Source of the DNA: Idiomarina seosinensis
GTDB lineage: Bacteria > Pseudomonadota > Gammaproteobacteria > Enterobacterales > Alteromonadaceae
Assembly: GCF_003987275.1 (NCBI RefSeq)
Contig: NZ_PIQF01000003.1
Location: forward strand, 109,315-173,314
Reading direction: 5' to 3'
Length of the DNA: 64,000 bases
The position numbers and the translations under genes are program-made. This document shows positions 61,659-64,000 of this stretch, piece after piece. The notes under the pieces are model-generated. The model saw only the letters and a program-made list of their open reading frames with translations. It did no database searches and was not told where the DNA came from. The first letter of the stretch is position 1. Each line of letters begins with the position of its first letter.

Positions 61659-63404
61659 CTAGGTTAGGATAATAACCGGGAATGAAAACTCGTAGGTTAA
61701 ACCTTCTCCGGGTTCACTGCGAGCGTCAATGTCGCCTTGTAATGTCTGAGTGACGAGGTTTCGTACAATATGGGTACCTAAACCGCTACCGCCCTCATCT
61801 CGTTTGGTGGTGAAGAAGGGGTCGAATAAGCGATCTAACTGTTGCTGGCTGATGCCAACGCCATCGTCGCGGTAAGTGATATGTAGCCGGTCCGACTCGC
61901 CATCGTGACTGACTGATACTCTAATCCACATATTACCAGCAGTTATGCCCTCGAAACCGTGCAATAAAGAATTAAGTATCAGATTCGTAAAAATTTGTGA
62001 AATAGCACCGGCCGGACAGCGAATATAAAGATCCTGTGGGCAGTCAACATGAACCTGGTGCTGCGTCTTTTTAAGTTGCGGTTGAAGCGATTGAACCAGA
62101 TCTTCAATGTAACGCTTGAGATTAATATCGCGGATCGCATCAGAGGCCTGATCGACAGCAACCTGCTTAAAGCTACTAATTAATTCCGAAGCGCGTTGCA
62201 GATTACTGTCTAATAATGTCAGGCTTTCTCGGCCTTCGCTGATGAATTTTTTGAGTTGTGCCTGCGTCAGCTGTTTATTCTCTAGCGCGTTATCCAGCTC
62301 ATCAAGCTTTTCGATAAGAAAAGAACTGGCAGTAACACTAATGCCGATCGGTGTATTAACGTCATGAGTAATACCCGCAACCAATCCCCCTAACGAAGCC
62401 ATTTTCTCCGACTCAACCAGTTGCTGTTGAGTTTCTTTCAGGTGCTGCAGCGATGCCTCTAAGCGCTGATTGGATTGCCGCAGAGTGCTTTCCATAGTAC
62501 GGCGCTGACTTATTTCACGCTCCAGTTTCTCCTGTCTTAACTCCAGTTCGTTCTTGCGCTGCTCGAGATCCAGCATGACCTGACTTAAGCGTGATGTTTT
62601 ACGGGCTACTTCCTGTTCAAGGATGGCGTTTTGTTCATCCAGCTGGCGGTTAGCCAGTTTCAACTTGTGTTGGGTACGTTGCAGGTCGTCTTGATATTCT
62701 TCGATGTTATCAATGAGCTGATTGTACGCCTGCTCAATGAGTACCAGCTCGTTATTGTGCTGATCATGCAGGCGTACCCGCGAAGCGTCTAAATTATCCA
62801 GTCGGAAACTGCGAATCTGACGTGTTAAATCGTTAAGTGGCCGATTAAGCATGCGACTAAACGCCAGAGAAAACAGAATCAGTAAAAAGGTGCTTTTTAT
62901 GAAGGCGTTACCGACAATAAAGGCCAGGCTCAGTTTGATCCGGTCGATCGCTATATCCCGGGTCGAAAATAACGTCACATCGCCAACGCGGGTCGAATGC
63001 CCTGAAAATTCGAAAATCAGTGTGTCAAAGTAGCCAAATATACCATTCTGCTCGGGCAGCATATAACCATCGGCGGCTTGTTCAGGCAGGTCTTCTACCG
63101 ACAGTGTTTCGCCTAACTGCACGACAATGTTACCGCTGTCGTCGCGAATTAATACACCGGCGATAGCGGGAATACTGATTAAGCCATCGGCAATAGTATC
63201 TATCTGTGGATTATTGAACTCCCACAGCGAACGAGTTAATGACCCGCTAAAAGTACTTTGTTGGTTTTGTAGCTCGGAGATGAGCGCGCGCTTGGTGTCG
63301 AAATATTCAGCGCCTATCTGGATCGCGGTCACCATTAACGTCAACAAAAAGTAGACGGAAAGCACGCGGGTTAACAGCGATGTGGAAATACTTTTATTGG
63401 CCAT
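61659..63404 (-). CDS. Membrane sensor histidine kinase
   Basis: This 581-residue kinase has two helices (about 10-30 and 150-175) around a periplasmic sensor with SLWEFNNPQIDTIADGLISIP, possibly CHASE5-like. A HAMP-like segment (about 180-230) and a long coiled-coil (230-340) follow. The H-box is GITHDVNTPIG near residue 350, and the ATPase has FTNLILNSLLHGF, DDGVGI and GGSGLGTHIV. No receiver or response regulator lies nearby, so its partner is elsewhere. It diverges from the Pho-box-controlled DUF3450 gene. Confidence 0.88.
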   Translation of the reverse strand: MANKSISTSLLTRVLSVYFLLTLMVTAIQIGAEYFDTKRALISELQNQQSTFSGSLTRSLWEFNNPQIDTIADGLISIPAIAGVLIRDDSGNIVVQLGETLSVEDLPEQAADGYMLPEQNGIFGYFDTLIFEFSGHSTRVGDVTLFSTRDIAIDRIKLSLAFIVGNAFIKSTFLLILFSLAFSRMLNRPLNDLTRQIRSFRLDNLDASRVRLHDQHNNELVLIEQAYNQLIDNIEEYQDDLQRTQHKLKLANRQLDEQNAILEQEVARKTSRLSQVMLDLEQRKNELELRQEKLEREISQRRTMESTLRQSNQRLEASLQHLKETQQQLVESEKMASLGGLVAGITHDVNTPIGISVTASSFLIEKLDELDNALENKQLTQAQLKKFISEGRESLTLLDSNLQRASELISSFKQVAVDQASDAIRDINLKRYIEDLVQSLQPQLKKTQHQVHVDCPQDLYIRCPAGAISQIFTNLILNSLLHGFEGITAGNMWIRVSVSHDGESDRLHITYRDDGVGISQQQLDRLFDPFFTTKRDEGGSGLGTHIVRNLVTQTLQGDIDARSEPGEGLTYEFSFPVIILT

Positions 63405-63488: not shown

Positions 63489-63544
63489 GTGTCACAAAGC
63501 TGACATAAAGCCGTCATTAAGCTGTCATGAAAAATCACTAAAGT
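63489..63544 (+). promoter_or_regulatory. PhoB box (four units) with -10, upstream of the DUF3450 gene
   Basis: Four 7-mers spaced exactly 11 bases apart resemble the PhoB unit CTGTCAT: GTGTCAC (63489-63495), CTGACAT (63500-63506), CCGTCAT (63511-63517) and CTGTCAT (63522-63528). The linkers are AAAG, AAAG and TAAG. TAAAGT (63539-63544) follows 10 bases after the last unit, the spacing of PhoB-activated promoters, where the box replaces the -35. Confidence 0.85.
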
Positions 63545-63552
63545 TGCAGCAT

Positions 63553-63565
63553 CTCTAATTTAGAG
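63553..63565. repeat. Short inverted repeat in the DUF3450 leader
   Basis: CTCTAA-T-TTAGAG is a perfect 6-bp inverted repeat between the predicted transcription start and the gene. It may be a small operator or RNA structure. Confidence 0.35.
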
Positions 63566-63602
63566 GACGTTAATTGTCCCTCCCAGACCAGAAGGTTACG
63601 TC

Positions 63603-64000
63603 ATGAGGTTGTTAGCAACAGGTACCGCATTAGCACTAGCGTCGTGTTTATCATGGCCGGCTCAGGCACAAGATAAAAGCCTGGATCCGGTTGTCGAAAA
63701 CGCGGCTGAGATTAACCAATCGGCTCGCCAGTCGCAACTCACTATTGATTCTATTTCTGAATCAATGCAACAGCGATTGCAGCAATACAAACAAATTACG
63801 AAAGAGATCGACGGGCTGCAAGTCTACACACAGCAACTGCAGCAGCAAGTCGCGAATCAACAACAGGAAATGACCGATCTTAATGATTCTATCGATCAGG
63901 TTAGCTTTGTTGAGCGACAGGTTACGCCGCTAATGATGCGTATGATCGACTCGCTGGATACCTTTACTGAGCTCGATGTTCCGTTTTTACAGCAAGAGCG
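63603..64000 (+). CDS. DUF3450 protein of a probable TonB/ExbB system, 3'-truncated by the window
   Basis: The first 132 codons are open to the window end. A signal peptide (MRLLATGTALALAS, cleaved near AQAQ) leads into a long coiled-coil (about 40-100) rich in Gln. The segment VERQVTPLMMRMIDSLDTF and DVPFLQQER match the DUF3450 family. In relatives, DUF3450 is first in an operon with ExbB, ExbD and TonB genes that energise outer-membrane receptors. Those would lie beyond base 64000. It has a PhoB box in front, so it is probably induced by low phosphate. Confidence 0.85.
   Translation, partial: MRLLATGTALALASCLSWPAQAQDKSLDPVVENAAEINQSARQSQLTIDSISESMQQRLQQYKQITKEIDGLQVYTQQLQQQVANQQQEMTDLNDSIDQVSFVERQVTPLMMRMIDSLDTFTELDVPFLQQE

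Follow-up and report, generated by a model that had tools for sequence, protein, structure and literature searches.

A putative PhoB-controlled TtpC-type TonB operon and its probable lipoprotein-receptor partner in Idiomarina seosinensis and its relatives

The stretch of DNA analysed here (the window; 64,000 nucleotides, bases 109315-173314 of contig C3 in a genome of 2.69 Mb) ends in the first gene of a TonB operon that is preceded by a four-unit Pho box. We consider it likely that this operon encodes a TtpC-type TonB energiser under PhoB control, serving a lipoprotein-receptor pair that would import a phosphorus source. Iron and B12 are the main cargoes for which TonB motors are known, whereas porins are generally assumed to be the route of phosphorus across the outer membrane. 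The TtpC-type TonB system is itself of a known kind; its phosphate-controlled, receptor-linked clade appears to be new as far as the searched literature shows. If this reading is true, phosphate-starved cells would drive phosphorus compounds actively across the outer membrane instead of depending on porins alone. Their phosphorus motor would be separate from the iron motor and, in some genera, would form one cluster with phoBR-pstS.

The Pho box and the operon behind it

Direct reading showed the units TGTCACAAAGC (63490), TGACATAAAGC (63501), CGTCATTAAGC (63512) and TGTCATGAAAA (63523) to follow one another with an exact 11-base period. Together they form a box of the TGTCAY type, TGTCAC / TGACAT / CGTCAT / TGTCAT (63490..63528, + strand), whose final 7-mer, CTGTCAT, ends at 63528. 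Ten bases past the last repeat lies a putative -10 element, TAAAGT (63539..63544, +), and the ATG of a DUF3450 gene is found downstream of both at 63603. In a Pho box the 7-mer CTGTCAT recurs every 11 bases and the -10 element stands about ten bases later. The site has the features of a PhoB promoter, with 7-mer direct repeats every 11 bases and a -10 about ten bases after the last unit without a good -35, and a scan with the sigma-70 consensus found no promoter on the + strand at TAAAGT. A four-unit pattern of 24 fixed positions, with up to 3 mismatches tolerated, matched the 64 kb only once, at the ttpB box and with 2 mismatches; 100 dinucleotide shuffles of the window gave a mean of 0.00 matches. 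The earlier note had claimed four CTGTCAT-like 7-mers at exact 11-base spacing and a TAAAGT ten bases after them, and direct reading, joined for the repeats by this chance test, bears it out. Two units with 1 mismatch gave 2 matches in the window, both within the ttpB box, where 0.6 were expected, which alone would not be remarkable. With 2 mismatches the two-unit pattern occurred genome-wide 560 and 573 times, where the control gave 521 and 540, and is therefore too frequent for use alone.

The gene behind the box (63603..64000, +) is ttpB-like, stands first in the TonB operon and runs off the window. Its assignment to DUF3450, made earlier from the letters, was confirmed by family search (PF11932, E = 3.2e-86), and the complete TtpB protein has 256 aa (L001:318-1088). 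Past 64000 we found the TtpC gene, exbB, exbD, tonB and the TPR gene in order, so that the exbB/exbD/tonB operon inferred in the earlier note exists. All genes lie on one strand, DUF3450(TtpB)-TtpC-ExbB-ExbD-TonB-TPR(TtpD), and from ttpB to the TPR gene the intervals between neighbours are 1 to 12 bases long; the products measure 463 aa (TtpC-like), 176 (ExbB), 135 (ExbD), 200 (TonB) and 421 (TPR protein). The TtpC protein carries a C-terminal MotA/ExbB domain (PF01618 at 342-448 of 463 aa) behind a long N-terminal part; this layout and the six-gene order are those of a TtpC-type TonB system.

Downstream of the TPR gene follow genes for a Porin_4 protein, an AEC-type permease (PF03547), PhoB, PhoR, PstS, PstC, PstA, PstB and PhoU. 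PhoB (TIGR02154), PhoR (TIGR02966) and the PstS-family protein (TIGR02136) all scored above the family cut-off; PstC, PstA, PstB and PhoU were named by reading, without family search. Pho-like repeats precede the porin gene (TGTCACAAAGTTGTCATAAAACAGACAT), pstS (TGTCATCAAAGTGTCATATAGCCGTC) and pstC (TGTAACAATACTGTCAT), and upstream of phoB there are scattered units only. The permease gene (L001:6547-7470) sits between the Pho-boxed porin gene and phoB. The adjacency of the TonB operon to phoBR-pst was seen in all four loci examined from the window's genus, and adjacency to phoBR outside the genus is partial (e.g. L124, L135).

A further complete TtpB-TtpC-ExbB-ExbD-TonB-TtpD operon lies elsewhere in the same genome (about C1:1281400-1286551); gene by gene it is 25-56% identical to the Pho TonB operon. 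A clear Pho box was not found there (best three-unit score 12/18, best two-unit score 8/12). ExbD occurs in three copies, in the two TonB operons and in the Tol-Pal cluster, where by reading the ExbD-type gene is TolR.

On the other side of the box a sensor histidine kinase gene is transcribed divergently (61659..63404, -; HATPase_c by family search, with HAMP and CHASE5 below cut-off). The kinase is not PhoR; a homologue (47-51% identity) lies divergently beside phoB in loci of Alteromonas, Salinimonas and Aliiglaciecola, making this gene a recurrent neighbour of the Pho cluster.

Conservation of the box and the clade of its operon

Of the 147 genomes of the family that were searched, our own included, 116 had a Pho-kind DUF3450 match (identity 48-100%, E <= 1e-72); by a count read off the table, 38 of the 49 genera are represented among them. 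The other 31 genomes gave a weaker match only (E >= 1e-57), with a clear gap to the Pho kind. Regions were fetched for 40 of the other 115 orthologs, a single one from each of 37 other genera and three from the window's own genus, and the six TonB genes were consecutive in every one of them.

Each upstream of 400 bases was scored for three TGTCAY units spaced 11 bases apart, 18 being the maximum. Among 41 ortholog upstreams, our own included, 23 scored 15 or more and all reached 13; ten of them reached 13 at most, and a score of 13 taken alone is weak evidence. Upstreams of the paralogous, housekeeping ttpB served as one control, in which none of 20 reached 15 and a single one reached 13. The gene start was poorly placed in some of these rows, so whole 1001-base pieces were scanned as well, and their maximum was 13, reached once. 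Reversed upstreams gave 0/41 at 15 and 10/41 at 13, the opposite strand 3/41 and 23/41, and random windows from the same loci 2/410 and 15/410; each of six other spacings gave 0/41 at 15. Two units of at least 11/12 were found in 24/41 orthologs as compared with 0/20 paralogs, 1/41 reversed upstreams, 2/41 opposite strands and 4/410 random windows. When the upstreams were shuffled (60 tries), the real score was never equalled in 26 of 41 and was equalled in up to 15% in the others. Judged against these controls the site is clearly enriched, with the spacing that PhoB needs; in the weaker half no single locus amounts to proof. The repeats thus recur in relatives above the controls (23/41 at 15/18 or more), and the doubt that they might be poorly conserved falls away. 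We rejected the idea that the box is a general feature of DUF3450-TonB operons, as the 20 paralog upstreams scored at most 13 and 16 other loci, described below, at most 12. Fourteen further orthologs from named genomes had three-unit scores of 13-16 of 18, one of them (L237) with a two-unit score of only 9/12.

In a tree of 80 TtpC rows, the 59 rows labelled as orthologs (the 41, four from outside the family and the 14 named, all of them box-scored) fell on one side of one branch with a support of 100/99. The rows partly repeat the same or nearly the same species (L224 and L135, for example, are identical), and several of the other rows have long branches and an unsure placement. TtpC rows of families f21 and f25 form a clade separate from the Pho TtpC. 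Among 295 genomes of the order, DUF3450 matches of at least 50% identity outside the family were seen in four genomes, all of family f7. These four orthologs have box scores of 14-15 and carry a lipoprotein-TBDR pair upstream of ttpB. The other 16 DUF3450-TtpC loci among the 20 regions fetched scored 12 or less, and the lipoprotein and receptor were not found in them; in one (L329), only about 560 bases upstream were scanned.

A lipoprotein-receptor pair as probable client

Searching the window's genome with the box revealed an exact two-unit copy at C3:250849, in front of a gene for a 916-aa lipoprotein that is followed by a TonB-dependent receptor gene. This operon (C3:250.9-256.4 kb), 78 kb from the TonB operon, supplies with its Pho-like box a candidate for the phosphate-regulated receptor that the earlier note had proposed to look for. 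In 18 of 37 regions from other genera, each covered to 1 kb upstream of ttpB, a receptor 45-75% identical to ours ends within that 1 kb, directly before ttpB, and the lipoprotein gene precedes it in all 18 of these regions, which were extended further upstream. Two more regions were extended (20 in all): L163 had no match, and L164, an added relative, showed the same order. In L120 the lipoprotein and receptor matches come after ttpD, and in L149, L150, L154 and L155 phoR and pstS stand just before the lipoprotein gene.

A lipoprotein match was present in 49/49 genomes with a Pho ttpB ortholog versus 10/31 without one (Fisher p 4e-12, uncorrected for kinship); these 80 genomes comprise all 31 without Pho TonB and 49 of the 116 with it. 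For the 30 best matches the 400 bases upstream of the lipoprotein gene contained a two-unit site of at least 10/12 in every case and of at least 11 in 23. In the extended ttpB regions, 17 of 19 lipoprotein upstreams scored 10/12 or more; L153 and L154 scored 8/12, the matched stretch having begun inside the gene, so that the promoter lay outside the scored stretch. A strong lipoprotein homologue also occurs in 8 of the 31 genomes without Pho TonB. The six of these loci that were read (L209-L214) showed the receptor in 6/6 cases, phoB or phoR matches alongside in 5/6, and an upstream two-unit site of at least 10/12. The receptor can therefore evidently live with another TonB.

In a survey of named genomes, limited to the best 80 of at least 534 relatives, a receptor match was within reach in 69/80 loci and, when only the 56 loci with a length of at least 18 kb are counted, in 54. 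Among the same 80, TonB or ExbD matches were found in 20, Pho/Pst matches in 20 and both in 11. Seven named loci, from Alteromonas marina, A. abrolhosensis, A. hispanica, Alteromonas sp. IB21, Salinimonas profundi, Ningiella ruwaisensis and Glaciecola pallidula, hold phoB-phoR-pstS-lipoprotein-receptor-ttpB-ttpC-exbB-exbD-tonB-ttpD as one cluster. Two distant loci, in a Myxococcota MAG (L289) and a Methylomonas MAG (L291), likewise bring lipoprotein and receptor together with TonB/ExbD and a PhoB-like regulator, a combination that is suggestive only, because the regulator matches are 39-40% identical. On these grounds the Pho TonB probably energises the linked receptor. The latter need not be its sole client, since Pho-like two-unit sites scoring 11/12 also stand upstream of two other large TBDR genes in the window's genome (L366:8237 and 11865, -, on C2), whose products measure 1051 and 1072 aa. 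One of these sites is near-palindromic and lies between one receptor gene and a divergent gene for a secreted protein of 416 aa.

The lipoprotein bears, by reading, a LAGC lipobox; with this signal and the TBDR gene in tandem it has the marks of the ElpS/FI family. Family search returned a Beta_helix match only, below cut-off, and comparison with the sequences of solved structures gave nothing useful (best E 0.05). We also considered a SusCD-like phosphate system (PusCD) and discarded it, as the SusD-type families PF07980/PF14322 were not found in the lipoprotein. The closest named relative among the best 80 of at least 534, from Idiomarina aquatica, is 94% identical, and its model (918 aa, mean pLDDT 88.9, pTM 0.57) is rich in strands and consists of two similar halves; the halves of our own lipoprotein are 62.6% identical over 409 positions. 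Foldseek placed right-handed beta-helix lyases as the best matches of the model at TM-scores of 0.1-0.2 of the query, so low that only the fold class was taken for the lipoprotein. Relatives are about 540, 920 or 1360 aa long, with other lengths further away; the longest class comprises L234, L235, L236, L237 and L285 (Aliikangiella, Alteromonas, Pseudoalteromonas). The length classes seem to reflect one to three copies of the beta-helix unit. The receptor model (pLDDT 85.2, pTM 0.83) is that of an ordinary TonB-dependent receptor. Among solved structures, haem and siderophore receptors make up most of its closest matches, with identities of 9-15%, a result that carries no information on the ligand.

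Known systems, alternative explanations and type II secretion

The accessible part of a Vibrio report describes the TonB2 operon TtpB2-TtpC2-ExbB2-ExbD2-TonB2-TtpD2 with a putative Fur box and low-iron induction (PMC6957404). It has in common with the Pho TonB operon the six gene kinds, the DUF3450 gene coming first and the TPR gene last (PMC6957404), but the latter differs by its Pho box, by its phoBR-pst or lipoprotein-receptor neighbours and by its own clade among the TtpC rows compared. In V. vulnificus TonB3, likewise of the six-gene TtpC type, a receptor gene heads the operon, and TtpB3 and TtpD3 are described in the same part as inactive in iron transport there (PMC6957404). Possible members of the TonB3 type are the loci of family f21, which fall in another clade and have neither Pho box nor linked receptor.

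For the lipoprotein and receptor, one close likeness is Caulobacter ElpS (CC0170), a phosphate-starvation lipoprotein with the gene of the TBDR CC0171 and type II secretion genes alongside; according to the excerpted report, this receptor gene, cc0171, is expressed in rich and poor media alike (PMC2996285). The likeness to ElpS/CC0171, a lipoprotein gene beside a TBDR gene, is one of gene layout and description. As described for elpS, gspC, gspD and gspE follow the lipoprotein-receptor pair in Maricaulis salignorans and Kordiimonas sediminis; gsp genes lay 3' of the pair in two of the three alphaproteobacterial loci scanned (L244, L288), and the two genes scanned in L250 were others. Unlike the Pho TonB clusters, Caulobacter ElpS has no adjacent TonB energiser named in the accessible text (PMC2996285). 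In Flavobacterium johnsoniae, the parts of the report at hand put the identity of FI, FII and FIII to the Caulobacter protein at 31-36% across 50-54%. Under Pi depletion the FI lipoprotein accounts for 18.7% of the exoproteome; its gene is clustered with that of an induced TBDT, FII lies in the phoBR cluster, and three TBDTs are induced under Pi depletion only, one of them tabulated in the FI cluster (PMC8115612). The FI/TBDT cluster, PUSIII, resembles our pair in joining a lipoprotein (polygalacturonase-like by the authors' modelling) with a TBDT, strongly induced there by Pi depletion; it differs in coming from Bacteroidetes and in that no ExbB/ExbD/TonB set is named in those parts (PMC8115612). 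The PhoB regulon of Caulobacter, as excerpted, includes various TonB receptors (PMC11208175). A dedicated TonB motor is not named for these phosphate-starvation systems in the accessible parts of the three reports (PMC2996285, PMC8115612, PMC11208175). No PhoB-controlled ExbB/ExbD/TonB operon was found in the titles and abstract openings of the literature searched, whose scope excluded subscription papers and preprints.

From the sequence, gene order, conservation, clade and co-occurrence observed we infer the following course of events. Under phosphate starvation PhoB~P would bind the direct repeats, replace the -35 element and activate the six-gene TtpC-type operon, and pst, the porin gene and the lipoprotein-receptor pair, with its own Pho-like box, would be switched on together with it. 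The beta-helix lipoprotein of the ElpS/FI type, presumably located at the cell surface, would capture a phosphorus-bearing ligand there. The TonB-dependent receptor would import this ligand with energy from the Pho TonB complex, physically paired with it, and the paralogous TonB operon would serve other receptors.

Regulation of the TonB operon by PhoB is, judged from sequence, very likely. It would be quite improbable that a different regulator of the OmpR family binds the repeats or that PhoB no longer controls the operon. Relatives do have many degenerate copies of the box, and PhoB binding is deduced from sequence, but pstS, pstC and the porin gene of the same cluster are preceded by this kind of repeat too, near phoB itself, and the 11-base spacing is specific. 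The box might instead serve the divergently transcribed kinase, either alone or jointly with ttpB, and the TonB operon would then be a bystander: the kinase gene starts 86 bases left of the box, and in several genera phoB has a homologue of it as neighbour. Both the repeats and the -10, however, are oriented towards ttpB, and box-like sites still precede ttpB in relatives where a receptor gene comes before it. For the latter reason a box belonging to the kinase alone was rejected, and the bystander explanation as a whole appears very improbable.

The ligand is a more delicate matter, and we favour import of a phosphorus compound through the linked receptor with some reserve. Sequence cannot separate a phosphorus ligand from, for example, iron taken up during phosphate stress, and PhoB could control the TonB operon for uptake of iron or another metal under phosphate starvation. 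The studied TtpC-type TonB2 of Vibrio vulnificus serves siderophore-iron uptake according to the accessible part of its report (PMC6957404), and the receptor model is nearest to haem/siderophore receptor structures, though this is expected of any TBDR. Yet the linked receptor is paired with an ElpS/FI-type lipoprotein, near phoB, phoR or pstS in many loci, and the Flavobacterium TBDTs, one of them in the FI cluster, were induced by Pi depletion only, as far as the report could be consulted (PMC8115612). Uptake of metal instead of phosphorus is thus unlikely in our judgement. With import of a phosphorus source as the preferred reading, we are slightly inclined to think that many marine gammaproteobacteria possess a complete, dedicated, pmf-driven outer-membrane phosphorus importer that has a receptor, a beta-helix capture lipoprotein and a TonB motor under PhoB control to itself. 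The function of phosphate-starvation receptors and ElpS/FI lipoproteins in Caulobacter and Flavobacterium is unsettled in the reports; the conserved unit seen in Alteromonas and its kin, in which lipoprotein, receptor and TonB motor are joined to phoBR-pstS, would make active phosphorus pumping directly testable.

A further observation concerned type II secretion. The window's genome carries a Pho-like box of 17/18 at C2:52653-52680 (-) (L071), about 95-122 bases before gspC. A gspC box of at least 14 was found in 3/30 loci (fetched out of those of 45 genomes), all of the window's genus; it is not family-wide, and type II secretion is therefore not claimed as part of the system. In part of the window's genus type II secretion may be phosphate-linked, which is suggested because release of ElpS depends on type II secretion in Caulobacter.
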